The notes under the pieces were generated by a model. The model saw only the letters and a list, made by a program, of their open reading frames with translations. It did not search any database and had not been told where the DNA came from. 64,000 bases of DNA. Source: Falsochrobactrum shanghaiense. GTDB taxonomy: Bacteria; Pseudomonadota; Alphaproteobacteria; Rhizobiales; Rhizobiaceae. Positions 5,578 through 44,545 of this stretch are shown piece after piece (the first letter of the stretch is position 1; every line of letters starts with the position of its first letter). A program made the translations under genes and the position numbers. Location: NCBI RefSeq assembly GCF_003149535.1, contig NZ_QGDB01000004.1, positions 312,501 to 376,500 of the forward strand. The letters run 5' to 3'.

Positions 5578-5859
5578 GCACGCTTCATGCGTCAATCCTT
5601 GCGTTCGAAAGGGATGATGATAGTCATTCTTTCTTCCCGTCGAGCCTCCGGATGTCGTCCGCGTATGCGCTCGGAGTGGTGTTAGTCACGGCCAATATCG
5701 GGGAATTCTCACGCATCCGTGCTCTGAAGGTCGAAAACTGGCTACGCGACTGAGCGCTGCTGTTGTCCGCTCATACCGCAGATAAAGACTGGTTTTCCGC
5801 TGATGTCTGCTATGAATGTGGTTGCCGAATCTGAACAGCAAGTGATGCCCTGACGACTG

Positions 5860-6612
5860 ATGACGACCGACCCGCTCCACATTCTCAAAACCATTTATGG
5901 ATACGATGCTTTCCGTGGCCAGCAAGCGGATATCGTATCGCATGTGATCGCAGGCCATAATGCATTCGTGCTGATGCCGACGGGCGGCGGCAAATCGCTA
6001 TGCTATCAGATTCCCGCCCTTGCGCGCCCGGGCATGGGGATCGTGGTTTCACCGCTTCTGGCGCTGATGGCCGATCAGGTCTCCGCGCTCCGGCAGGCGG
6101 GTGTAAAGGCAGCGGCGCTCAATTCCGACCTTGCTGGCGATGACAGGCTTGCCTTGTGGCGTGATATCCATGCTGGGGCGCTTGATCTGCTCTATGTCGC
6201 GCCTGAAACCCTGCTCAGACCGGATACATTGCAACGCCTGAGCGATGTGCCTCTCTCGCTGATCGCTATCGACGAAGCCCATTGTCTGTCGCAATGGGGG
6301 CATGACTTCAGGCCATCCTATCGACAGCTTGATGTGTTGATGACGCAGTTTCCCGATACGCCACGCATGGCGTTGACCGCAACCGCCGACGAACCGACAC
6401 GTGCGGAAATCCTGTCGCATCTGTAGATTGAGGAGCGCGATGCCTTCATCGCCGGTTTCGACCGTCCCAATATTCGCTATGCGATCATGGAGAAGAACAA
6501 TCCCCGCGTGCAATTGAAACGTTTTCTACAGGATCACCAGGGCGAAAGCGGCATCGTTTACTGTCTTTCGAAACGGAAGACAGAAGAAACCGCCGAATGG
6601 CTGCGTAGCCTA
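5860..6612 (+). pseudogene. recQ: recQ helicase fragment: in-frame stop and 3' truncation
   Basis: The first ~251 codons of a RecQ-type DNA helicase. Motif I (MPTGGGKSLCYQ), the DEAH-containing motif II (IDEAHCLSQWGHDFRPSY) and motif III (LTATAD) are intact. Codon 189 (6424-6426) is an amber stop, after which the same frame continues with good RecQ sequence (FIAGFDRPNIRYAI, GIVYCLSKRKTEETAEWL) until it meets the transposase remnant near 6610. The rest of helicase domain 2, the RQC and the HRDC domains are absent and do not resume after the insertion. A full RecQ is about 600 residues, so this copy is dead; an intact recQ presumably lies elsewhere. Confidence 0.9.
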
Positions 6613-8513: not shown

Positions 8514-8704
8514 ATCATTATGAATTTTTCTAATATCATTGAATAGATCTTTTGCATTGATCGACCCCCGGCACAAGCATAATCGTCAATAATCAAAAAC
8601 GCCCTTCGGTATCGAACTCATCTGGTCCTGATCACGGGCGACAGTGCGCGTCTGTGCAGCACGAGGCAAGGGCATATAAAGGGCATATAAAAGGAGAACG
8701 AAAC

Positions 8705-34465: not shown

Positions 34466-34613
34466 TATTTTGATTATTAATTAAAATAATAAAAATTACT
34501 CGGAGATTTCACCAAGTTTAAAATGAAATATATGCCTAATACTATAGGTCCAGTCCTTTACAGTATGTCTGTTTCATATGTATGACAGGGGAAGATTTTC
34601 AGGAGCAGAAGTG

Positions 34614-35327
34614 ATGGTGAGACGTACCTCGGATCCTTTATGGCGGCGGATTGCAAGCGACATTCAAAAGCAGATCGACGATGGTAAACTGGCACCTGGA
34701 GAGCAACTGCCGACAGAGATCAGCTTGAGCAAGCAGTTTTCCGTGAGTCGTTTTACCATCAGGCAGGCGCTCGCATCCCTGGAGCGGCAGGGCCTTGTGC
34801 AGATTGAACATGGGCGGGGGATTTTCGTTGCCGAACGCTCAATTCCATTTTTGCTCGACAGCCGCACCCGGTTCAGTGAAAATCTGAAGCGGCTGGGGTT
34901 AAGCGGCGAGCGTCGCTTCATCGATGCGACTCACGACGATGCATCCGAGACTGTCGCGGTGGCGCTTGACCTTTCGCCTGGCGATGAAATCATCACCGCC
35001 TCCGCACTTGCTATCGTTGATCATCGGCCAGCAGGCCTTATTACGGATTATTATGAAGCGGCCCGTTTTGCGGGAATCGACAAGTTGCTGCGCACGAATG
35101 CTTCAAGAACCGCCGCCCTCGCTGCTTATGGAATAAGCGACTATGTTCGGCACAGCACGCTGATCAGCAGCAGAATGCCATCTGGTGCAGAAGCAAAGCT
35201 TCTTAATATACCACGTACACGGCCATTGATAGAATCCACTAAGATCGATGTGGATACGACGGGACGCCCCCTGGCTTTTGGTGTGGCCAGCTTTTGTGGT
35301 GACCGTATTCAGTTTATGATTGAATGA
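34614..35327 (+). CDS. GntR family transcriptional regulator (HutC/UTRA subfamily, PhnF-like)
   Basis: A 237-residue regulator. The winged helix is at about residues 8-75 (WRRIASDIQKQIDDGKLAPG, then LSKQFSVSRFTIRQALASLERQGLV), and the UTRA ligand domain follows (LITDYYEAARF, IPRTRPLIESTKIDVDTTGRPLAFG). AGGAG precedes the ATG at 34614. Its position divergent from the DppA-like operon suggests that it controls that operon. PhnF-like regulators commonly sense phosphorus compounds, which fits the phosphodiesterase in the operon. Confidence 0.9.
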   Translation: MVRRTSDPLWRRIASDIQKQIDDGKLAPGEQLPTEISLSKQFSVSRFTIRQALASLERQGLVQIEHGRGIFVAERSIPFLLDSRTRFSENLKRLGLSGERRFIDATHDDASETVAVALDLSPGDEIITASALAIVDHRPAGLITDYYEAARFAGIDKLLRTNASRTAALAAYGISDYVRHSTLISSRMPSGAEAKLLNIPRTRPLIESTKIDVDTTGRPLAFGVASFCGDRIQFMIE

Positions 35328-35353
35328 AGTTTTTAGATCCCGTGTCTTTTAAA

Positions 35354-35398
35354 GCATGTCGCCTGAAAGTGGGAACCGGTTTCGGGATAACGACATGC
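35354..35398. repeat. Rhizobial-type palindromic repeat (GCATGTCG family)
   Basis: GCATGTCG and CGACATGC arms enclose a GGGAACCGGTTTC-containing centre. The tail (GTAAAAACAA...TTAAAGCGC) resembles repeats scattered through rhizobial genomes. It lies in the 426-base gap 35328-35753, which otherwise holds the transposase relic at 35513-35665. Confidence 0.65.
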
Positions 35399-35512
35399 GT
35401 AAAAACAACAACTTAAAGCGCAAGGAGCGAATCTGAAAGATCGCGACACACTTTAACGTCCGGGCGGCTCGTCTCACAATATATTCAGAAGGAGAGTTGG
35501 AGCAGGTTCATT

Positions 35513-35665
35513 TTATGATGGGTCATATCCGCATGCCGCGAAGTAGTTTGCCCATTCGGCAGGTTCGAACGATGTACTGACTTTGCCTACAGCATCCCAT
35601 AGCGCTTCGACAGAGCGTTCGACTTTGGCCCGCAGTCGAGCACCTGCCGCCCTATTGCTTCTCTG
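35513..35665 (-). pseudogene. IS630-family transposase C-terminal remnant
   Basis: On the minus strand the last ~45 codons (RLRAKVERSVEALWDAVGK, then WANYFAACGYDPS and a stop) match the characteristic end of IS630-type transposases (ERTVEALW...ANYFAAAGYD). Sequence upstream is not recognisable as transposase and contains frame breaks. It marks the left side of the CHAD-ParA-CYTH module. Confidence 0.7.
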
Positions 35666-35753
35666 ATGTCTGCAACCTGTGCGCGCAGGGGCGCGACTTG
35701 ACAAGGCAGTAATTGTATATACATTGCATATATCTTTCTTGTATGGGGCCTCT

Positions 35754-36014
35754 ATGACGGATATGCGCAAGACAGCGAAACGCAACAAGAAGGACAGTCA
35801 GCTGCTGATCCGTATAAGCAGCACAGAGCGTGAGCAGTTCCTGCAATTATGCAATGAGCTGGATACCAGCGCTGCTCGCGAAATCAGGCAGTTCATACGC
35901 GGGTTCATCAAGAAGAACACGTCGAAGGACAGCCGTTTGAGTAAGGAGACAATTCATGTCGAAGAAAAACGACGCCACGGAAAAGAAAGTGATTTCCCTC
36001 AAGCAGGAGATTAA
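35754..36014 (+). CDS. Small ribbon-helix-helix-like protein
   Basis: An 86-residue basic protein. The segment SQLLIRISSTEREQFLQLC followed by AAREIRQFIRGFIKK has the beta-strand/helix/helix pattern of a ribbon-helix-helix DNA-binding domain, with a basic N-terminal arm (KTAKRNKKD). I choose the ATG at 35754, with GGGG a few bases upstream. Its 3' end overlaps a 44-codon Lys-rich gene in another frame. It may be a small autoregulator or antitoxin-like protein; no toxin gene is adjacent. Confidence 0.62.
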   Translation: MTDMRKTAKRNKKDSQLLIRISSTEREQFLQLCNELDTSAAREIRQFIRGFIKKNTSKDSRLSKETIHVEEKRRHGKESDFPQAGD

Positions 36015-36090
36015 GAAGCGAAAAGCCAAGGTCTCGAACCATGAAAAAAAGATCAAGGCTCTGAAGAAGGCGGTGAAGAAGGCCGCCTAA
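35956..36090 (+). CDS. 44-residue lysine-rich peptide
   Basis: Begins MSKKNDATEKKVISLKQEIK and ends KALKKAVKKAA. More than a third of the residues are Lys, with a heptad-like spacing that predicts an amphipathic helix or short coiled coil. AAGGAG lies 8 bases before the ATG, a much stronger ribosome site than that of the gene it overlaps. A terminator hairpin follows 12 bases after its stop. It could bind nucleic acid or polyphosphate; this is inference from composition only. Confidence 0.55.
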   Translation: MSKKNDATEKKVISLKQEIKKRKAKVSNHEKKIKALKKAVKKAA

Positions 36091-36102
36091 ACCACGAACA
36101 GG

Positions 36103-36122
36103 AGGCCGCCATTGTGCGGCCT
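36103..36122. terminator. Hairpin terminator between the Lys-rich gene and sixA-like gene
   Basis: AGGCCGC and GCGGCCT pair around a CATTGT loop, followed by TGCTT. It lies between the stops of convergent genes and could serve both directions. Confidence 0.6.
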
Positions 36123-36147
36123 TGCTTGCGGCGGGGCCGATACAGGT

Positions 36148-36669
36148 TCAGTGGGAACGATCCAGCAGCCTGGGCGTGACAAAGCGGTCCAGTGTTCCGC
36201 CACCCGTGGCGACGACCGACCAGAACGCCAGATCGAAATCGATGACGGCAAGGCCGCCGGTCGGATATTTGTCCCGCAGGCGGGTGAGATCGCTCTCGGT
36301 GCCTGCACCGATGAGGATCGCCGCCAGATCTTCCAGGCCGGGGTTATGCCCGACCAGTAGCAGCGTTCGTACATCGTTCGGCGTCTCGTGGATGACGGCG
36401 AGAAGCTTGCGCGCAGGCGCCTCATAGATGCGCGGTTCATCAACTGCGGGGATAGTGGTAGCAAAGGCGGGGCTGGCGAGCGCCCAGGTTTCCTGCGTCC
36501 GGCGTGCAGTCGAAACGATGGCGAGATCGGGTATAAGACCCGCCTCCGCCATATAGGCCCCCATGATCGGGCCGGCACGAAAGCCGCGTTTCGCCAGCGG
36601 CCGGTCATGATCCGCCACACCTTCCGGCCAGTCGGATTTGGTATGTCGCAGCAGGATCAATCGTCGCAC
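36148..36669 (-). CDS. Histidine phosphatase family protein (SixA-like)
   Basis: A 173-residue phosphatase with the RHG-type motif RHTKSDW near residue 7 (the catalytic His) and the second His in LVGHNPGLEDL. SixA proteins remove phosphate from phosphohistidine or from small phosphorylated molecules. The start is GTG at 36669, with AGGAG 6 bases upstream; the longer frame to 36738 has no ribosome site. It is divergent from the RHH-CHAD-ParA-CYTH operon, which suggests a shared link to phosphate metabolism. Confidence 0.87.
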   Translation of the reverse strand: MRRLILLRHTKSDWPEGVADHDRPLAKRGFRAGPIMGAYMAEAGLIPDLAIVSTARRTQETWALASPAFATTIPAVDEPRIYEAPARKLLAVIHETPNDVRTLLLVGHNPGLEDLAAILIGAGTESDLTRLRDKYPTGGLAVIDFDLAFWSVVATGGGTLDRFVTPRLLDRSH

Positions 36670-36791
36670 GTTCTGCTCCTCCAGAGATTCTATGGATAGC
36701 CAACTATATGTGATGGCATCGCCTGCGTCGTTGCGCAAATTGCCATCTGCCGCATTTCATGACATCATGACGTCAAAAGATGGACAGGAAT

Positions 36792-36971
36792 ATGGGCAAG
36801 AACAGAAAGCCGAAAGACGAGGGTGAGAAGAAGAACACCTCCCTGCGCCTGTCGGGAAAAATGCTGAAAGCCCTGAAGATCAGGGCGATAGAGGAAGAAA
36901 CCAGCGTGCAGAAAATTGTCGAAAAGCTGATCGGGCAATATCTCGACCAACCACGAGAACCGAAAGCATGA
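36792..36971 (+). CDS. Small ribbon-helix-helix-like protein preceding the CHAD gene
   Basis: A 59-residue protein. A basic, Lys-rich arm (MGKNRKPKDEGEKK) is followed by NTSLRLSGKMLKALKIRAIEEE, then VQKIVEKLIGQYL, the pattern of the CopG/Arc fold. An upstream ATG at 36780 would add four residues. The stop overlaps the CHAD start by 4 bases, so it is co-translated with that gene. RHH proteins are frequent partners of ParA-type ATPases (ParG, omega), and a ParA gene lies in this operon. Confidence 0.72.
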   Translation: MGKNRKPKDEGEKKNTSLRLSGKMLKALKIRAIEEETSVQKIVEKLIGQYLDQPREPKA

Positions 36972-38485
36972 ATTTGGCCGATGAGATTTTTTACATGCCC
37001 GCGCAGCGGTTGGCCGAGCTTGCCGGAAACAATGTCGAGGGCCTGAAACCGGTTCTGGAATGGGCGGAGGATCGCCGCTCCTTCTCAATCCGCGACAGTT
37101 TCGACCAGAGCCTGCGCTTGTCGCAGCGGCTGCTCTTGGAGGATGGCGAGCGCTTGGAACTGCTTTCCGCCTCAGGCGGGGCAATAAGCCAGAACACGAC
37201 CCCCGAAGCCCGCTTCGTCGCGGATTTCACCGACGGGCCGGTGAAGGAGGCGCTGTCCGATCTGTCGCCGCTGCGCGCGTTTTTGCCCATCGCTTCGGGA
37301 GATGTGCGATCGGGGCGGCTGACTCTGGTGGACGACGAGGGTAAGACCCGCGCCCGCGCTCTGCTGCGCGAACTGGAGCCGGCCGAAGGCGAGACCGCCC
37401 TGCTGGTGGCGACGGAGGGATTGCGCGGCTATGACAGGGCGTTGCGCGATCTGGTCGCGCGCATCCGCGATTGCGGCGGCACATCGCTTTCCGCCGGCAA
37501 TCTCTACCGGATGATCGATCCGGCCTGCATTGCCTACAATCCAAAGCCCGTCATCGAGGTTGGCCGCAATGAGACCGCCTTCGATGCTGCCACCGACCTG
37601 ATCGACGGCTATCTGCCTGTCGCCCGCGTCAACGAAGCCGGCGTCATTGCCGATCTCGATACGGAATTCCTGCACGACTACCGCATTGCGCTGCGCAAGA
37701 TTCGCTCGGTCCTGAGCCTGTTCAAGGGCGTCTACGACCATGAGCAGACCGTTGAGCTGAAGGCGAGATTTTCCGCCCTGATGGCGCCGACAGGACAGCT
37801 ACGCGATCTTGACGTCTATCTCCTCGACCGGCAGCGTTTCTTCAACCTCGTGCCTGAGACGATGCATGGCGGGCTGGAAGCGATGTTCGAGCTGCTCGCC
37901 GACCGGCGCGCCGAGGCGCAGGCAGTGCTTGCGGAACATTTGCGCGGCAAAGCATACGGCAAGGAAATCAAGGCGCTGGCGAAACTGTTTTCCAAACGAA
38001 AGAAGCTCATGCCCGGCCCTAACGCCAGCCGCGCTTCCTATGATTTTGCCTGCGAGCTGATCTGGAAGCGTTACCGCAAGATCGGCCGCATCGCAGCCGG
38101 TATCACGATCAGGACGCCCGACGCCGAAATCCACGAATTGCGGATCGAGTGCAAGAAATTGCGCTATCTGATGGAGTTCTTCAGTCCCGTCTTTCCGAAG
38201 GATGGTTTCCGCAGTATCCTGAAGCCGCTCAAGAAGCTCCAGGATTCGCTCGGCCTGTTCAATGACAGGGCTGTCCAGCAGGTCAGGCTTCTGACTTTTT
38301 CCGACACGCTCGGCGGCGAGCCCCGCAAGCTTGAAATCGTGCAGAGCCTCGGGGCGCTGGTCGTCGTTCTCCATCAGAACCAAATGGCGGAGCGCGAAAA
38401 GATCGTCGCAGCCTTCACCAATTTCAACGGCGACAGGACGCAACAGACCTTCCGCCAGGTTTTCCATGCCGGAAAGGAAGGCTGA
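36968..38485 (+). CDS. CHAD domain-containing protein with degenerate CYTH-like N-terminus
   Basis: A 505-residue protein. The C-terminal ~290 residues form a CHAD domain, with the two diagnostic basic helices LHDYRIALRKIRSVLSLFKG and HELRIECKKLRYLMEFFSP. CHAD domains bind inorganic polyphosphate through conserved His, Arg and Lys. The N-terminal ~200 residues (FSIRDSFDQSLRLSQRLLLEDGERLELL onward) look like a decayed CYTH-type barrel without the ExExK motif. It is coupled to its neighbours on both sides (4-base overlap upstream; TGATG junction with the ParA gene). Confidence 0.85.
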   Translation: MNLADEIFYMPAQRLAELAGNNVEGLKPVLEWAEDRRSFSIRDSFDQSLRLSQRLLLEDGERLELLSASGGAISQNTTPEARFVADFTDGPVKEALSDLSPLRAFLPIASGDVRSGRLTLVDDEGKTRARALLRELEPAEGETALLVATEGLRGYDRALRDLVARIRDCGGTSLSAGNLYRMIDPACIAYNPKPVIEVGRNETAFDAATDLIDGYLPVARVNEAGVIADLDTEFLHDYRIALRKIRSVLSLFKGVYDHEQTVELKARFSALMAPTGQLRDLDVYLLDRQRFFNLVPETMHGGLEAMFELLADRRAEAQAVLAEHLRGKAYGKEIKALAKLFSKRKKLMPGPNASRASYDFACELIWKRYRKIGRIAAGITIRTPDAEIHELRIECKKLRYLMEFFSPVFPKDGFRSILKPLKKLQDSLGLFNDRAVQQVRLLTFSDTLGGEPRKLEIVQSLGALVVVLHQNQMAEREKIVAAFTNFNGDRTQQTFRQVFHAGKEG

Positions 38486-39234
38486 TGCGCATTATCGCCT
38501 GTTATTCCAACAAGGGCGGGGTCGGCAAAACTGCGACCGCAGTCAATCTCGCCTATGCCTTCGCCGCATCCGGCAAGCGCACATTGCTGTGCGATCTCGA
38601 TCCACAGGGCGCGTCGAGCTTCTATTTTCGCGTGAAACCGTCGAAAAAGCTGACCAAGGGCAGGTTCTTCGAAGATGTGGAGCGTTTTACCGGGGCCATC
38701 CGGGGCAGCGACTATGACAATCTCGACATTCTGCCCTCGAATATGAGCTTTCGCGAGTTCGATATTTTCCTGTCGCGGATGAAGAACAGCCGCTCACGGC
38801 TGAAAAAGGCGCTGAAGGCGGTCAAGGCCGACTATGATGTGGTAGTGCTTGATTGCCCGCCCAATATCTCGATGCTGTCCGAAAACGTCCTGCGGGCAGC
38901 CGATGCGGTGATCGTGCCGCTCATTCCGACGACCCTGTCGCAACGCACCTTCGAGCAATTGCTGGAGTTCTTTGGAGAAAGTGAACTGCCTGCCGACAAG
39001 ATCCATGCCTTCTTCTCCATGGTGCAGGGAACCAAGAAGCTGCATGGTGACACGATCGGCGAGATGGCCCTTTCTTACCCCGGCCGAATCATGACGGCGC
39101 AGATACCCTTCGCCTCCGAAGTCGAGCGCATGGGCCTGACCCGCGCCCCGGTTTTGGCCACCGCGCCGAATAGCGCCGCTGGAAAAGCCTATCAGACGCT
39201 GTTCGAGGAGATCGAAAAGCGGGTGGTCGCGTGA
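38485..39234 (+). CDS. ParA family ATPase
   Basis: A 249-residue deviant-Walker ATPase. KGGVGKTA at about residues 9-16 is the ParA/MinD P-loop. LLCDLDPQGASSFYF is the switch region, and VVLDCPPNISMLSENVL is the Walker B/switch II region. It starts on the last base of the CHAD stop and ends overlapping the CYTH gene. ParA proteins pattern DNA or large cargo on the nucleoid or membrane. Here the cargo may be what the CHAD protein binds. No ParB gene is visible; the small RHH protein upstream is the candidate partner. Confidence 0.9.
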   Translation: MRIIACYSNKGGVGKTATAVNLAYAFAASGKRTLLCDLDPQGASSFYFRVKPSKKLTKGRFFEDVERFTGAIRGSDYDNLDILPSNMSFREFDIFLSRMKNSRSRLKKALKAVKADYDVVVLDCPPNISMLSENVLRAADAVIVPLIPTTLSQRTFEQLLEFFGESELPADKIHAFFSMVQGTKKLHGDTIGEMALSYPGRIMTAQIPFASEVERMGLTRAPVLATAPNSAAGKAYQTLFEEIEKRVVA

Positions 39235-39689
39235 AGGAGATCGAGCGCAAATTCCTGGTCAGGGGCCCGGTGCCAGAGGGACTTGTCGGCAAGCCGATCC
39301 GACAGGGCTACATCACCGCCGCTTCGGATACAGCCGAAGTCCGGCTGCGCCAGAAGGGCGAGGCCTGTTTCCTGACAGTCAAATCCGGGGACGGGCTGGT
39401 GCGCGACGAATATGAGATCGCGATCGGCAAGCCGGAATTCGAAACGCTCTGGCCGCTTACCGAGGGCCGCCGGGTGGAGAAGACCCGTTACACCGGCAGG
39501 CTGGCCGACGGACTGGAATTCGAACTCGACGTGTTTGAGGGACATCTGGTTCCCTTGATGCTGGTCGAGGTCGAGTTTCCCTCTGAAGCTGCCGCCCGCG
39601 CATTCATCCCGCCGAACTGGTTCGGTGAAGACGTTACCGAGGACAAAAGCTACCGGAACAGTGCACTGGCGCTGTCCAGACCATCGTGA
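39231..39689 (+). CDS. CYTH domain protein (triphosphate tunnel metalloenzyme, inorganic triphosphatase-like)
   Basis: A 152-residue single-domain enzyme. The ExExK signature is EIERKFLV at residues 3-10. Tunnel residues follow in EVRLRQKG, FLTVKSG, RDEYEI, VEKTRY, ELDVFEG and LVEVEFPS, and the C-terminal EDVTEDKSYRNSALA is typical of the NeuTTM-like group, which hydrolyses inorganic triphosphate. The start is GTG overlapping the ParA stop (GTGA). Last gene of the operon, which associates a polyphosphate-binding CHAD protein, a ParA ATPase and a triphosphatase. Confidence 0.9.
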   Translation: MKEIERKFLVRGPVPEGLVGKPIRQGYITAASDTAEVRLRQKGEACFLTVKSGDGLVRDEYEIAIGKPEFETLWPLTEGRRVEKTRYTGRLADGLEFELDVFEGHLVPLMLVEVEFPSEAAARAFIPPNWFGEDVTEDKSYRNSALALSRPS

Positions 39690-39998
39690 TTGGCGTGCAC
39701 CTCGGCCCTGGCGCGCAGGCGGCGCTGCGAATGCACTTTTCCAGCGCCAGCGTCAAGATTGACCGGAGCCGCATGTTCTCCGCTTTGGCGGATACGCCCT
39801 CGATAGTGTCCCACGGAGGTGCACCCCGAATTTGGACCATGGAGATCTGGAATTTTCCGGGTTTAAGGCTCAATGCGGCGGGGATGCCGCCGCTGGTTAT
39901 GGTCCACTTCATCATGGTATCGAACACCTTATGTGGCGAATCCGAAATTGGCATTACTTTTGAGCGCGGTTGCGAGCGAATTCCGGGTTTCACCAGAA
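39690..39998. other. 309-base gap without a recognisable gene
   Basis: Between the CYTH gene and the end of phnE. Open frames exist on both strands, but none has a ribosome site or a recognisable domain. I see no clear repeat or terminator. It may contain decayed coding DNA. Confidence 0.4.
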
Positions 39999-40793
39999 TT
40001 ATTGCACGTTGGCGCGCAGCCGGTCGGTCAGAAATTCCATGGCCAGCACGATGGCAAAAATCACGAGAATGATGGTCGAGGCATTCTTGTACTGGAACAG
40101 ATCGAAGGCGACCTTGAGTTCCTGCCCGATGCCACCGGCGCCGACCAGACCGAGCACCACGGAAGCGCGTACGGATTTCTCCAATGCAAACAAGGTGGTG
40201 TTGATAAGTGACGGCATCGCATCCGGCAACACGGCCCCGCACAGGACCGAGAACCGGCTCGCCCCGATGGCAAAGAGCGCCTCTTGCGGCTTCTTGTCGG
40301 AATCTTCCATCGCCTCTGCAAAAAAGCGCCCGCAAAAGCCAATCGTATCGACCATGATGGTCATTGTACCCGCCACAGCCCCAAGCCCGACCGACGCCAC
40401 AAAGATGAGCGCCCAGACCAGATCCGGAACGGTTCGGAACAATGAAACAAGCATTTTGAACAGGTGCCGGAACAGTCCTGCCGGCGAAATTCCCTTGGCC
40501 GAAAGCCAGGCAATCGGGAGACTGATGACGACCCCGATAGCAGTTCCCACGAGGGCAATTTGAAATGTCTCGATCATCCGCCAGAAAACGCGCAGGAGAA
40601 AGCCGCTTTCGGTGTTGGGCGGCAGCATTCGTCCGACCAGCTCAGCCATGCGCGGCCCGCCTTGAGCAAGTTGCGCAGGCGAAGGCCCGACCTGCTGCAA
40701 CGAGACGATGAGCAGCGCTGCAACTGCGATCATGAGGCTGAAGGATAGCGGCGACAGGCGGGCAATGCGTGGCGGCACGGCGCTCTTACGCAT
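39999..40793 (-). CDS. phnE: Phosphonate ABC transporter permease PhnE
   Basis: A 264-residue inner-membrane permease with about six hydrophobic segments. The cytoplasmic loop KPQEALFAIGASRFSVLCGAVLPDAMPSLI is PhnE-like, and a VVLGLVGAGGIGQELKVAF segment follows, as in other PhnE proteins. The ATG at 40793 overlaps the phnC stop by 8 bases. It completes a single-permease phosphonate importer with PhnC and PhnD. Confidence 0.92.
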   Translation of the reverse strand: MRKSAVPPRIARLSPLSFSLMIAVAALLIVSLQQVGPSPAQLAQGGPRMAELVGRMLPPNTESGFLLRVFWRMIETFQIALVGTAIGVVISLPIAWLSAKGISPAGLFRHLFKMLVSLFRTVPDLVWALIFVASVGLGAVAGTMTIMVDTIGFCGRFFAEAMEDSDKKPQEALFAIGASRFSVLCGAVLPDAMPSLINTTLFALEKSVRASVVLGLVGAGGIGQELKVAFDLFQYKNASTIILVIFAIVLAMEFLTDRLRANVQ

Positions 40794-41535
40794 GAAACAC
40801 CTCCTGGAGAGCGTCACGGCTGATATTTCTGGTTGGCTCGTTGAAGAAAACAGAGCCCGACTTCAACGCGATGATGCGATCGGAAAACTCCAACGCGTGA
40901 TCCATGTCATGGGTTGTGTAGAGCGTCGTGATGCCGGCTTTATGCGAAAGCTCGGAAAAAAGTGCCATCACATCATGGCCCGATACCGGATCGAGGCTGG
41001 CTGCGGGCTCGTCGGCAATCAACAGTTGCGGCTTGCGCACAAGGGCTCTGGCAATAGCGACCCGCTGGGCCTGCCCACCCGACAACTCATCGGCGCGAGC
41101 GGCAGATTTGTGACAAAGACCGACCTGATGGAGGGCCTGCTGCGCGTCTTCGCGCCATTCCCGCCGGGCAATGGATTGATGCCAGGCGCGCCATGTTCCC
41201 GCCAGTCCCAGCTTGCCATGTACGACATTGGTGAGCACCGATTGGCGCGAGACGAGGCCGTGATGTTGGAACACCACGCCGATCTGCCGCCGCAGTCGCC
41301 GCAACTGGCCCGGCGACGGCGAAGCACCAATGTTCTCGCCAAGCGTGTTGACCTCGCCCCCGTTCAGCGGCAAAAGTCCGATCAGGCATTTGAGAAGTGT
41401 CGACTTCCCGGCCCCGTTAGAGCCGATCAGCGCCACGCGCTGCCCCGCGCTGATATCAAGTTCGATCCCGGAAAACACAATCCTGTCGTCGGCATATCTC
41501 TTGGTGAGACCGCGCGCGCGAATGATCTCCATCAT
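40786..41535 (-). CDS. phnC: Phosphonate ABC transporter ATPase PhnC
   Basis: A 249-residue ATPase. Walker A is GSNGAGKST, the Q-loop is VVFQHHGLVSRQSVLTNV (the PhnC form, followed by GKLGLAGTWRAW), the signature is [15 protein letters not shown], Walker B is LLIADEPAASLDP and the switch His is in TTHDMDHAL. It is separated from phnD by a strong hairpin and coupled to phnE by overlap. ATG ATG at the start gives a one-codon ambiguity. Confidence 0.93.
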   Translation of the reverse strand: MMEIIRARGLTKRYADDRIVFSGIELDISAGQRVALIGSNGAGKSTLLKCLIGLLPLNGGEVNTLGENIGASPSPGQLRRLRRQIGVVFQHHGLVSRQSVLTNVVHGKLGLAGTWRAWHQSIARREWREDAQQALHQVGLCHKSAARADELSGGQAQRVAIARALVRKPQLLIADEPAASLDPVSGHDVMALFSELSHKAGITTLYTTHDMDHALEFSDRIIALKSGSVFFNEPTRNISRDALQEVFHA

Positions 41536-41571
41536 GGTGTCTTATCCTGCTTTATGGGAGACGTTCGTCGT

Positions 41572-41604
41572 GCAAAAGAGGCAGATGCATTCTGCCTCTT
41601 TTGC
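41572..41604 (-). terminator. Intra-operon hairpin between phnD and phnC
   Basis: GCAAAAGAGGCAGA and TCTGCCTCTTTTGC form a perfect 14-base stem around a 5-base loop. It lies between the binding-protein gene and the ATPase gene, where partial termination or mRNA stabilisation often raises binding-protein output over the membrane components. Confidence 0.68.
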
Positions 41605-41624
41605 GGTGTCCCAGATTATTCCGC

Positions 41625-42482
41625 TCAATTGACGAAGTCGGTGAAGGTTTCGACGCCGATGGTGCGATACATGGAACGGACATAGTCATAGTCGGTGTCC
41701 TTGATGTCCGTCAGGAAAAACCCGCCTTCAAACTTTTTATTGTCCTCGCCCGTCACGACGGCCTGCATAAGCTCCGTGCCCTTTTGAGCAAAGGCATCGC
41801 GGACCTTGTTGAAGACTTCATCGGAAATGTCCTTGCGTGCGACCAGAATATCGTTGGGCAGGTCACGTCCGCGGGCTACTACAGCAAAAGCCTTGTCCGG
41901 GAATGCCTCACGCACGGAGGCGAGGTGGCTGAAATTGAGACCGATTGCGGCGATATCGCCACGGATCAGTGCTTCCGCCGCGACATTGCGCGAGATGATC
42001 ACCGGTTCGTAGTCCGCATTGTATTTAAGGCCGAAATCTGCCAGCGCCTGTGCCGGTCCAAGATGCTGCGAAGTGGAGCCAACCGAGCCGAAGGCAACTT
42101 TCTGGCCCTTGAGATCCTCGATCGAGCGAATTGGCCCGTTGGCAAGTACTGCCACCTGCGCGAAATAGTCCGGACGCTGCCAGGCAACGACGATCTTCGG
42201 CTGGCTGAGTTCTTTCATGACCACATATTCGGCAGGCCCGGTCAGAACCAGATCAACCTGTCCCGAATTCATCGCCTCAACAGCCGTCGTGCGCGAAGCC
42301 ACGGGATAAAGCTCGATATCCAGGCCGGTCGCTTCTTCCAGAGCCGTTTGGAAAGCGCCAAACTCCTGCTGCAAAGCCTCCAGACCTTCAATGTCCGTAA
42401 CGGCAAATTTGACTGGATCGGCAAGCGCGGGCATGGCGGTCGCAAGCGTGAGAGCGAGAGCCGCTGCGAATTTCTTGATCAT
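41625..42482 (-). CDS. phnD: Phosphonate-binding periplasmic protein PhnD
   Basis: A 285-residue binding protein. The signal peptide is MIKKFAAALALTLATAMPALA. Mature-chain features are EGLEALQQEFGAFQTALEEATG, VLTGPAEYVVMKE and LKGQKVAFGSVGSTSQHLGP, the phosphonate-binding-loop region of the PhnD/SsuA group. First gene of phnDCE, divergent from phnM with HutC-type operators between them. The ligand may be phosphonate, phosphate ester or phosphite; the cluster favours phosphonate. Confidence 0.92.
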   Translation of the reverse strand: MIKKFAAALALTLATAMPALADPVKFAVTDIEGLEALQQEFGAFQTALEEATGLDIELYPVASRTTAVEAMNSGQVDLVLTGPAEYVVMKELSQPKIVVAWQRPDYFAQVAVLANGPIRSIEDLKGQKVAFGSVGSTSQHLGPAQALADFGLKYNADYEPVIISRNVAAEALIRGDIAAIGLNFSHLASVREAFPDKAFAVVARGRDLPNDILVARKDISDEVFNKVRDAFAQKGTELMQAVVTGEDNKKFEGGFFLTDIKDTDYDYVRSMYRTIGVETFTDFVN

Positions 42483-42495
42483 AATTTTTCCTCTG

Positions 42496-42507
42496 CTGTG
42501 TAGACAG
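42496..42507. promoter_or_regulatory. HutC/PhnF-type operator, distal of two
   Basis: CTGTGTAGACAG contains the GTnTAnAC core recognised by HutC-subfamily GntR regulators and has 4-base inverted arms. It lies 31 bases from the second copy, three helical turns, in the phnD-phnM intergenic region. PhnF encoded at 43763 is the likely binder. Confidence 0.65.
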
Positions 42508-42526
42508 GATGCGGTTGACGGGTTAT

Positions 42527-42538
42527 CTGTATAGACAG
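42527..42538. promoter_or_regulatory. HutC/PhnF-type operator, proximal of two
   Basis: CTGTATAGACAG has the GTATAGAC core also seen in the mycobacterial PhnF box (TGGTATAGACCA). With the copy at 42496 it forms a phased pair able to repress both divergent promoters. Confidence 0.7.
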
Positions 42539-42596
42539 CAGATGACGTTCACATGACGCCCTCTCCATTTTCGGGGTAACTCTCAAGGAAAAACTT

Positions 42597-43766
42597 ATGG
42601 ACTGGACCATCAGGGGCGGCCGCGTACTGACCGGACGCGCATTGACCGCCAGCGAACTTCACGTGTCGAAGGGGCGGATCGTCTCGGCCCCATCGGAAAG
42701 CGCACGGCTCATCGAGGCTGATGGCCTGCTTGTACTTCCCGGAATCATCGATATTCACGGCGACGGCTTCGAACGCCAGATCATGCCAAGGCCCGGAGTG
42801 CGCTTCAATACCGCGCTTGCACTGCGCGATACGGACCGGCAACTCGTAGCAAACGGCATCACAACCGCCTTTCATGGGGTGACCATCTCGTGGGAGCCGG
42901 GCCTTCGTTCCGTGGATGCCGCGTCGGATCTCATTTCCACTCTCTCTCGCATCCGCTCTGCCCTTCTATGCGATACGCGGCTGCATCTGCGCTGGGAAAC
43001 CTTTGCGCTGGAACAATTGCCGGCCGTCATGCAGTGGCTCACGCTGGAACCCAAGCCAATCGTAGCCCTTAACGATCATACGACCGGGACGGTCATGAAG
43101 GGCACGATTGCACGCAAGCTCAACGAAATGGCGTCACGCTCTGGTCTGAGCCCGGACGGGTATCAGGCATTGCTCAATGAAGTCTGGGCACGGCGCGAAG
43201 AAGTGCCGGGCGCGATAGAAGCCTTGGCCGATGCGGCAAAATCCACGGGAAATGTTCTGCTCGCCCACGATGAAGCCTCGCCTGAGCAGCGCCATGCATT
43301 CAGGCAAATGGGCATTACGACGTCAGAATTCCCCCTCAATCGTGAAACGGCTGAAGCGGCACGCGCCGCTGGAGAAAACATCATTCTCGGCGCCCCCAAT
43401 GTGGTGCGCGGCGGCAGCCATAATGGGGCACTCGATGCAACCAGGGCCGTGCGGGGCGGCATATGTACGGTGCTTACCAGCGACTATTATTATCCCGCGC
43501 CCTTATGCGCGGCCTTCAAGCTGGCAAAACCGGACCTGAGCGATCTGGCCAATATGTGGGCGCTGGTTTCTGCCAACGCTGCCGAAGCTGCCAAGCTGGC
43601 AGACCGGGGCACCCTGCATCCGGGCCAGCGAGCGGACCTTATCCTTGTTGACGCCACCGATTTGCAGCATCCGCAGGTGCTTGCGACGATGGTCGGCGGA
43701 CGCATGGTCTATTCAAGCATGAATTCCGATTTTCCGACCCGCTCCATGGAAAGAGTTCTGGCATGA
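42597..43766 (+). CDS. phnM: Alpha-D-ribose 1-methylphosphonate 5-triphosphate diphosphatase PhnM
   Basis: A 389-residue amidohydrolase-fold enzyme that removes pyrophosphate from the triphosphate intermediate of C-P lyase metabolism. Hallmarks are GIIDIHGDGFERQIMPRPG (metal-binding His), then ITTAFHGVTISWEPG, LNDHTTG (His), LLAHDEA (His-Asp), FPLNRETAEAA and TSDYYYPAP (Asp). AAGGA precedes the ATG. The C-P lyase core genes (phnGHIJKL) are not in the window. The phnF gene overlaps its end by 4 bases. Confidence 0.92.
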   Translation: MDWTIRGGRVLTGRALTASELHVSKGRIVSAPSESARLIEADGLLVLPGIIDIHGDGFERQIMPRPGVRFNTALALRDTDRQLVANGITTAFHGVTISWEPGLRSVDAASDLISTLSRIRSALLCDTRLHLRWETFALEQLPAVMQWLTLEPKPIVALNDHTTGTVMKGTIARKLNEMASRSGLSPDGYQALLNEVWARREEVPGAIEALADAAKSTGNVLLAHDEASPEQRHAFRQMGITTSEFPLNRETAEAARAAGENIILGAPNVVRGGSHNGALDATRAVRGGICTVLTSDYYYPAPLCAAFKLAKPDLSDLANMWALVSANAAEAAKLADRGTLHPGQRADLILVDATDLQHPQVLATMVGGRMVYSSMNSDFPTRSMERVLA

Positions 43767-44545
43767 AGGATAAAACCAGTCTGGTGTCGGGCACAGACAG
43801 CATGGATGTCTTATCCGGTTTTGAAGATGTTGTTCTCCGCCAACCCAATGGCACCGCGATCTGGCAACAGATATACGACCATTTTCTTGGTCTCATCGAA
43901 AGCAATTTCCTCAAGGCCGGCAGCCAGCTTCCGGGCGAAAACCAAATGGCTGAAAAGCTTGGCGTCACGCGAATTACGCTGCGGCGCGCGCTCCAGCAAT
44001 TGCAGCGTGAGGGACATTTGACTGCCCGTAAGGGAGTCGGCATCTTCGTCCGCAGCCTGCCTTCCGTCTTTACTGTTCGCGACGACCGGCCCTTTCTGGA
44101 AAATTTCAACGCTCACGGCAAGGAAGTCGTGACAACGACGCTGGTTCTGTGTCGTGAGGCGGTTACGACAGCCGTAGCCAAGAAACTCGGGCTGTTGGAA
44201 AATGAGGAAACGATCCGTCTGTGCCGTATCCGCAGTGCAGACGACCAGCCTCTATACGTTAACACCAAGCTGTTTCCGGCCAGCCGTTTTCCGGACTTTG
44301 AGTCCGTCTACGCCAGCCGCCAGTCGGTATCGGATGTCTTCAAGGCCCATGGGATTGCGAAATATCATCGCCACGAGACCCGTATCAGCGGAGGTTTTGC
44401 CTCTTCGGACGAAGCTGAACTTCTCAAGCTGACGCCCGGCACGCCGATTTTTCGTGTCAACGCCATCAACCATGATGAGCAGTCCCGCGCCATCGAATGG
44501 ACGCTCGGATCGTGGCCGCTAACCTCGGTAGAATTTGTTTTCTAG
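43763..44545 (+). CDS. phnF: Phosphonate metabolism transcriptional regulator, GntR/UTRA (PhnF-like)
   Basis: A 260-residue HutC-subfamily regulator. The winged helix is at about residues 30-98 (WQQIYDHFLGLIESNFLKAGSQLPGENQMAEKLGVTRITLRRALQQLQREGHL), and the UTRA domain contains DQPLYVNTKLFPASRFPDF and the typical ending IFRVNAINHDEQSRAIEWTLGSWPLTSVEF. It overlaps phnM by 4 bases. Its stop codon lies inside the terminal inverted repeat of the following 108-bp repeat. Expected target: the paired GTnTAnAC sites before phnM. Confidence 0.9.
   Translation: MKDKTSLVSGTDSMDVLSGFEDVVLRQPNGTAIWQQIYDHFLGLIESNFLKAGSQLPGENQMAEKLGVTRITLRRALQQLQREGHLTARKGVGIFVRSLPSVFTVRDDRPFLENFNAHGKEVVTTTLVLCREAVTTAVAKKLGLLENEETIRLCRIRSADDQPLYVNTKLFPASRFPDFESVYASRQSVSDVFKAHGIAKYHRHETRISGGFASSDEAELLKLTPGTPIFRVNAINHDEQSRAIEWTLGSWPLTSVEFVF

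Follow-up and report, generated by a model that had tools for sequence, protein, structure and literature searches.

A set of genes in the 64,000-nucleotide window analyzed here (Falsochrobactrum shanghaiense, contig NZ_QGDB01000004.1, positions 312,501 to 376,500) encodes, in immediate succession, a ribbon-helix-helix (RHH) protein, a CHAD protein, a ParA-type ATPase, and a CYTH/TTM enzyme. Judged by its sequence, the set is a good candidate for a machinery that uses ATP to position or control polyphosphate granules. Together, the four genes would form a module for handling polyphosphate, with a ParA/MinD-type ATPase at its base. In it, the CHAD protein, probably a fusion of CYTH and CHAD whose CYTH half has lost the catalytic strand, would coat or bind polyphosphate; ParA in its ATP form, sitting on the nucleoid, would treat the polymer or granule bound by CHAD as its cargo, keeping it spaced and inherited; and the stand-alone CYTH enzyme would hydrolyze tripolyphosphate released from the polymer. 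RHH proteins would bind their own 8-bp boxes before the operon, most likely controlling its expression, and their Lys-rich arms may also touch ParA. The sequences show the linkage of the genes, the conservation of active-site and binding residues, and the pairing of RHH types with boxes, from which polyphosphate binding by this CHAD protein, its role as cargo adaptor for ParA, positioning over the nucleoid, and autoregulation are inferred. We incline to the view that ParA handles polyphosphate as cargo with CHAD as its adaptor; polyphosphate is the likely cargo because the constant neighbor, CHAD, belongs to a polyphosphate-binding family. The fuller proposal is held with slightly more doubt than confidence, namely that this would be the first system to use ATP for the positioning and inheritance of polyphosphate granules, with a pseudo-CYTH-CHAD protein as coat and adaptor, ParA moving it across the nucleoid, and exchangeable RHH proteins whose Lys-rich arms sense the state of ParA or the polymer and which switch the operon by way of their own 8-bp boxes.

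Gene order and its spread

The genes for RHH2 (36780..36971), the 505-aa CHAD protein (36968..38485), the 249-aa ParA (38485..39234), and the CYTH enzyme (39231..39689) all lie on the + strand and are chained by overlaps of 4, 1, and 4 bases in the list of open reading frames (ORFs); for RHH2, alignment makes the ATG at 36792 a more likely start than 36780. The CHAD domain (residues 215-441) follows a probable degenerate CYTH-like region (residues 1-212) and matches PF05235 with E=2.7e-56 (191.5 bits, Pfam cut-off 25.6). ParA possesses the Walker A sequence KGGVGKT with its signature lysine and scores above the cut-offs of the Pfam models AAA_31 (E=1.1e-42), CbiA, and ParA, and the CYTH enzyme matches PF01928 (E=9.4e-7; 29.3 bits, cut-off 23.2). 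A preliminary description of this DNA had reported these genes and overlaps along with a divergent SixA-like gene, a second RHH-like gene, and a Lys-rich ORF, all of which are present in the ORF list and Pfam results; the N-terminal domain of the CHAD protein was not mentioned there.

Genome contigs were searched with the CHAD protein, and the best 80 of 235 relatives (alpha-, beta-, and gammaproteobacteria) were kept; these loci, cited below by number, were picked by similarity to the window CHAD and include many from Ruegeria, so that the counts are not independent events. The gene parA lies directly 3' of CHAD in 76 of the 80, with junctions from -4 to +9 bases relative to the CHAD stop (alpha 65/67, beta 8/8, gamma 3/5, classes read from record titles), and a CYTH gene is also found within 3.5 kb of the CHAD start in 59 of those 76. 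The earlier suggestion to look for ParA between CHAD and CYTH genes in other genomes was thus borne out, and the order reaches well beyond a single strain, into three proteobacterial classes. Two of the four loci without ParA consist of CHAD and CYTH, and two of CHAD alone. The loci L106 and L075, in which no parA stands between CHAD and CYTH, can be regarded as natural controls. Hosts include Paracoccus denitrificans, Shinella, Ruegeria, Nitrosomonas europaea, and metagenome-assembled genomes of Castellaniella and Colwellia; in five of six Paracoccus plasmid records viewed, the operon is plasmid-borne. The presence of the operon in culturable species such as P. denitrificans and N. europaea opens the question to gene deletions.

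The gene set is rare in near relatives of the source genome. Within the genus, a full-length relative was found in one of 35 genomes besides its own; at the family level, none was found at E<=1e-25 among 297 genomes drawn; and at the order level, three of 199 genomes drawn carried one, with some CHAD match in 64 of the 199. In a tree of 31 chosen ParAs, the window protein groups with those of Shinella, Paracoccus, Castellaniella, Nitrosomonas, and L045 (support 100/99). This group mixes alpha- and betaproteobacteria and therefore suggests that the set has been transferred between lineages. Pairwise distances of CHAD, ParA, and CYTH correlate (r 0.75, 0.66, and 0.63 over 24-31 chosen loci; none of 2000 permutations as high), a correlation that shared ancestry alone could explain. 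Three duplicates should be borne in mind, since L004 equals L084, L032, a locus from the same genus as the window, equals L045, and L169 duplicates L056.

The ATPase itself is strongly conserved. KGGVGK, the deviant Walker A with signature lysine, is kept in 76 of 76 ParAs, across mixed alpha- and betaproteobacterial groups, and in the loci compared the identity to the window is 62-84% for ParA, 40-71% for CHAD, and 52-71% for CYTH. An intact Walker A and an overall conservation above that of CHAD or CYTH both speak against an ordinary phosphate-stress operon into which ParA has drifted with no specific tie to polyphosphate, a reading that we consider very improbable even with phosphate or phosphonate genes near some copies in its favor.

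Searches from the ParA side gave a consistent outcome. At E<=1e-45, ParA was matched in four of 385 alphaproteobacterial genomes, its own included, and in the other three a CHAD gene lies directly upstream, its product 28 to 31% identical. At E<=1e-38, 68 of 398 phylum genomes, again including its own, gave a match. Phylum ParAs of at least 50% identity occur at four places outside the source genome, all adjoining CHAD (three of them new, L169 being L056), and two further ParAs at 43% identity also adjoin CHAD. In total, CHAD stands beside ParA at six of the 68 fetched phylum places (L169-L172, L179, L183), or nine of 71 with L127-L129; in L172, for example, the CHAD ORF ends at 5630 and ParA starts at 5648. 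The remaining 62 of the 68 places hold ParAs of 32 to 48% identity to the window protein, and ParAs at about 32-48% identity would appear mostly to do other jobs. CHAD adjoins close ParAs and seldom distant ones; therefore, the link marks a ParA clade rather than ParA generally.

The CHAD protein and the CYTH enzyme

Among CHAD proteins, CtCHAD is known to bind polyphosphate and those of Ralstonia are known to be located at granules. The nearest solved chains to the window protein are those of CtCHAD, 3e0s and 6qv7, with E values of 2e-47 to 3e-47 by sequence and 6e-79 to 7e-79 by profile. PF05235 is present in all 40 aligned CHAD proteins, onto which the contact residues were mapped from the CtCHAD mutants given in the accessible part of the source study (PMC6537752). 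Four central polyphosphate contacts, H253, R256, R260, and R296, are invariant in 40/40. Of the other contacts, K390 is K or R in 40/40, R438 is K or R and K441 is K in 39/40 each, and K386 is K or R and K389 is R in 38/40 each. Nine of the ten tested contacts are thus conserved, the exception being R385.

The first 212 residues of the CHAD protein match no consistent Pfam family in the 40 members, and Pfam CYTH is absent from the N-terminal domain in 40/40 as well as from four distant CHAD proteins. A direct profile match of this domain to CYTH was not significant (probability 1.4% and 0.4%), rising to 26.7% (E 7e-4) when distant rows were added. Significance was reached only with the distant N-terminal rows as intermediates, which matched the CYTH half of ygiF-type fusions ("fusion CYTH"; 95.8%, E 7e-9) on one side and the window family (99.5%, E 7e-23) on the other; this distant set comprises six usable rows and a seventh, L129, that was mis-cut but kept in. 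The profile of stand-alone CYTH proteins matched neither the distant nor the window N-terminal set; fusion CYTH was matched (92%). The N-terminal domain is therefore probably a CYTH domain, linked transitively through distant profiles, and it is called degenerate because no ExExK strand was seen by eye in residues 1-212. With the CHAD proteins already described (phosins) and with ygiF of E. coli, the operon protein shares the CHAD domain with its contact residues and, apparently, an N-terminal CYTH-related domain. Unlike in those proteins, the CYTH half here is apparently degenerate, an active-looking CYTH is encoded separately, and ParA is the neighbor in 76/80 loci.

The solved chains matched by the window CYTH enzyme are 2fbl and 3typ (E about 2e-58 to 3e-58). 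The CYTH protein of the N. europaea operon is identical to PDB chain NE1496 over 151/151 residues, and the window enzyme, an orthologue, is 67% identical to it. The ExExK strand and the Tyr/Lys dyad expected of CYTH/TTM triphosphatases are both present: E3, E5, Y27, and K51 are invariant in 20/20 CYTH rows, and K7 is replaced by R in one (L106). NE1496 is presumably the enzyme known as NeuTTM, which makes NeuTTM the N. europaea member of the same operon, with invariant active-site residues. In the portion of the literature available, one paper lists NE1496 as a tripolyphosphatase (PMC13318637), and another presents NeuTTM as highly specific for triphosphate, suggesting a Tyr-28/Lys-52 dyad for it (PMC3440374); Y27 and K51 are equated with these two residues by our own counting, at an offset of one. 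The accessible sections of the latter paper also raise the question of whether cells contain triphosphate and consider that the enzyme may have a protective "proofreading" role (PMC3440374). In what could be consulted of the literature, NeuTTM is treated as a stand-alone enzyme, and the term CHAD has 0 occurrences in PMC3440374 and PMC13318637. The N. europaea triphosphatase thereby gains an operon context. The preliminary description had the CYTH enzyme trim polyphosphate chains. As an orthologue of a specific tripolyphosphatase, the enzyme likely removes tripolyphosphate and does not shorten long chains, and "trims chains" therefore becomes "removes triphosphate."

Ribbon-helix-helix proteins and their boxes

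Both RHH proteins of the window score below Pfam cut-offs (RHH_9 E=0.049; CopG_antitoxin E=0.0041, RHH_1 E=0.011), and the earlier wording "RHH-like" is apt for this reason. The two belong to different types, each with a Lys-rich N-terminal arm. RHH2 (type A) follows a box at 36760..36775, TGACATCATGACGTCA, made of two tandem 8-bp TGACrTCA units and recorded without a strand. RHH1 (type B; 35754..36014, +) lies inside a longer GTG-initiated ORF from 35679 and is preceded by an 18-base box at 35715..35732, GTATATACATTGCATATA, likewise unstranded, whose pattern was derived from the window itself. Over 22 chosen rows, RHH2 has 15 invariant columns, and its arm is net positive in 21 rows and neutral in one.

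Over the 80 loci, type A is intact in 34, a remnant in eight, replaced by type B in four, and not found in 34, the last class being based on ORFs of at least 28 residues and including L044, which holds a remnant. Twenty-two of the 34 RHH-less genomes were searched whole; 21 lacked a match to the type-A profile, and L044 showed its remnant at the operon. Against 28 genome entries (27 distinct, L004 being L084), the profile matched five: intact operon copies in L047 and L065, and remnants at the operon in L042, L044, and L113. One further weak match lies elsewhere in L042 (E 9e-4). The 23 entries without a match all keep CHAD, and all except L101 and L106 keep ParA. RHH2 was also seen decayed or truncated in N. 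europaea and others (L042 at 5897-6004, L044, L113, L070, L107), with CHAD and ParA still in place.

Type-B relatives, sought with the window RHH1 alone as query, stand just 5' of CHAD in L056, L061, L096, and L112 (48-57% identity, E 2e-14 to 4e-10), and RHH2 was not found at these four loci; the window carries both types. Within the genus, RHH1 was matched in three of 35 genomes including its own, two of them at only 37% identity over 46 residues. The type-B proteins of L061, L096, and L056 have an Ala/Glu-rich tail ending in basic RRVKA or KKTRKRVKA, a kind of tail missing from the window RHH1 and L112.

Each RHH type is paired with its own operator-like box. The type-A box, TGACrTCATGACGTCA, consists of two palindrome-like 8-bp units in tandem; a unit of 8 bp is the size of the MetJ met box. 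With up to three mismatches, it occurs in 45 of 87 loci (85 distinct, given L004=L084 and L032=L045) and in none of 393 control windows; the search area was misplaced for L049 and L081, where boxes are visible, and partial for L055. When the loci are sorted by RHH type, omitting L069, whose sequence begins only 13 bases ahead of CHAD, the box occurs in 33/34 with intact type A, 5/8 with a remnant, 4/33 RHH-less, and 0/4 with type B (intact A versus none plus B, Fisher P about 1e-14, uncorrected for relatedness). Some promoters, such as that of L072, hold more than two units by eye. The type-B counterpart, an octamer GTATATAC spotted by eye after the five type-B genes had been picked, precedes the start of each of them by 40-56 bases; it occurs eight times in 1.08 Mb of loci, the remaining three being in L064, L066, and L099. 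The longer 18-base pattern has one other match in the window, at 8672-8689 with two mismatches. In L064, the octamer adjoins a type-A box in one promoter, about 270 bases before CHAD.

These observations bear on the chief alternative of the preliminary description, a plasmid-type ParA/RHH locus taken over by CHAD-CYTH genes. Such a locus would be of partition type Ib, with RHH as the protein that binds the centromere, the box as that centromere, and ParA, and it would go on segregating DNA. Like the type Ib loci ParF/ParG and SegAB, the operon combines a small ParA, an RHH protein with a basic arm, and a tandem-repeat box in front; the box-RHH-ParA layout resembles ParF/ParG in particular, and some copies reside on Paracoccus plasmids. 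Unlike in type Ib loci, CHAD lies between RHH and ParA, the RHH gene is not found or decayed in 42/80 loci and swapped in four, and no constant centromere-binding gene stands beside parA. ParA persists in the 34 loci without RHH and the eight with a remnant, 21 of the 22 RHH-less genomes searched whole had no type-A profile match, and the deeper CHAD-ParA pairs (L171, L172, L179, L183, and L127-L129) gave no RHH match. With at most one mismatch, the type-A box occurs at a single place in the source genome of 3.84 Mb, at one place in 10 of 24 other genomes or records, and at none in 14; nine of the 10 places are at the operon by comparison of contig coordinates, and one is elsewhere in the L084 genome. 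A genome-wide set of parS sites is unsupported at this stringency. Since the CHAD-ParA pair reaches further than RHH, and the box tracks RHH while CHAD-ParA stays regardless, the captured partition locus was rejected as the leading explanation and seems very improbable.

The RHH protein is, going by gene content, a replaceable regulator or partner, because it is lost or swapped at many loci while CHAD-ParA stays. The preliminary description had cast RHH as regulator or partner; RHH2, intact in 34/80 loci, is no fixed partner. Either RHH or CHAD may stimulate ParA. According to the accessible text of a survey of ParA/MinD cargo systems, ParA partner proteins work through an N-terminus that is disordered and positively charged (PMC10241942). 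The arms of the RHH proteins would fit this description but are missing from many loci, while CHAD is constant but has no clear arm.

Related systems and phosphate context

In the proposed cargo system, the arrangement would parallel McdAB of carboxysomes and other ParA/MinD cargo systems, in which the gene for a ParA-type ATPase likewise lies beside that for a cargo-binding protein. The McdAB cargo is the carboxysome; here it would be polyphosphate, with CHAD and CYTH instead, and no McdB-like protein was recognized among the operon proteins in Pfam and NCBIfam scans. McdA is listed with SGGQGKT in the part of the source available (PMC9178275), whereas the ParA described here has the full KGGVGKT. 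In 2024, a conserved folD-ppk-parA-CHAD order was described, but left uninterpreted, in Acidithiobacillus, with ParA mentioned, in the sections available, for plasmid partition only (PMC10892726). As described, that cluster places parA beside a CHAD gene and ppk, and the two are likened by gene order alone; it contains ppk1, and no separate CYTH or RHH gene is named in the accessible text. The source genome of the window encodes both PPK1 and PPK2. The known system for spacing polyphosphate granules would share even spacing with the operon proposed here, but it uses a histone H1-like DNA-binding protein speculated to be a tether, with no ATPase. A 2025 review of the positioning of bacterial organelles, in the portion available, counts that of polyphosphate granules among emerging problems, gives AlgP as the protein known for it, and states that whether energy is spent on it remains to be seen (PMC13052382). 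No functional ParA-CHAD link, and nothing closer than the Acidithiobacillus cluster, was found in the open-access literature searched, and the text of the ParA/MinD cargo survey contains neither "polyphosphate" nor "CHAD" (PMC10241942). For the question of granule positioning, the operon points to one particular ATPase, together with an enzyme and a protein that is likely to be the adaptor.

Phosphoanhydride chemistry is the common theme of the neighboring genes. NUDIX genes occur within 1.6 kb of the operon in 15/83 loci (16 matches near, two further out), and nine of these 15 are on the same strand within 32 bases behind the operon. SixA-like genes lie within 1.6 kb in six of 83 loci, the window included, and none further out; four of the six near SixA loci and five of the 15 near NUDIX loci are profile seeds. 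In L172, the order is CHAD-ParA-SixA-like, with the SixA-like gene directly behind ParA, and an annotated NUDIX gene follows CYTH in four of five Paracoccus plasmid copies viewed, one of which also has pst-phoU-phoB upstream. Recurring enzymes (CYTH, NUDIX, and SixA-like) with occasional phosphate regulators would also suit a different role for ParA, that of an ATP-dependent switch or scaffold that regulates polyphosphate metabolism by activating or restraining CHAD, PPK, or hydrolases while the granules stay unmoved, comparable to BcsQ in cellulose synthesis. Orphan ParAs do occur in metabolic operons, BcsQ among them, according to the available part of one source (PMC9178275). We regard this alternative as unlikely but worth serious attention.

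Several observations weigh against ParA-driven positioning of polyphosphate through CHAD. CHAD is not beside ParA in 62 of 71 ParA loci as judged with our own CHAD profile, several contigs being too short; ParA was not found behind CHAD in four of 80 loci (L075, L083, L101, L106), nor CYTH within 3.5 kb in 17 of the 76 CHAD-parA loci. The tested contact R385 is W in 39/40 CHAD proteins, and no Lys-rich arm was seen by eye on their printed N-termini. Phosphonate (phn) neighbors were seen in the window copy only, and pst-pho genes are absent from four of the five Paracoccus plasmid copies viewed. With the pattern that we presumed for the Pho box, the window gave no excess of matches (five, against 4.55 expected) and none at the module, and Pho-box control of the module was rejected.

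The module lies inside a phosphonate region of the window (34578-44545). Upstream is a GntR-family, PhnF-type regulator (34578..35327, +; NCBIfam TIGR02325 phnF, 204.8 bits, cut-off 156.8). Downstream, at 39999..42482 on the - strand, are a PhnE permease (258.5 bits, cut-off 216.7), a PhnC-like ATPase, and a PhnD-like binding protein, the last two below their NCBIfam cut-offs (244.5 vs 266.1 and 98.7 vs 112.05), followed on the + strand at 42597-44545 by PhnM (subfamily model 424.5, cut-off 253) and a second PhnF (163.8, cut-off 156.8). In L179 (3381-6968), a distant CHAD-ParA pair is followed by a PhoU-phosphotransferase fusion and genes of the GAK system, an ATP-grasp protein (TIGR04356) and HprK_rel_B (TIGR04355); the GAK system perhaps also concerns phosphate polymers. 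Its ATP-grasp and HprK-related kinase genes are not among the subset of window genes scanned. An amphi-Trp protein lies near CHAD-ParA in L183 (6090-6440).

The divergent SixA-like histidine phosphatase of the window (36148..36738, -) passes the superfamily model alone, PF00300 (His_Phos_1; 22.5 bits, cut-off 21.7), and remains below the TIGR00249 sixA equivalog (33.1 bits vs 74.5), so that "SixA-like," as in the preliminary description, is the right wording. In L048 (4438-5397), a single protein encoded upstream of the operon combines a SixA-like with a NUDIX domain. The 44-residue Lys-rich ORF (35956..36090, +) overlaps the end of RHH1 in another frame. By eye, it has no relative among Lys-rich ORFs of 28-130 residues in the operon loci; it is preceded by a Shine-Dalgarno-like AAGGAG, and its codon usage resembles that of CHAD and ParA.

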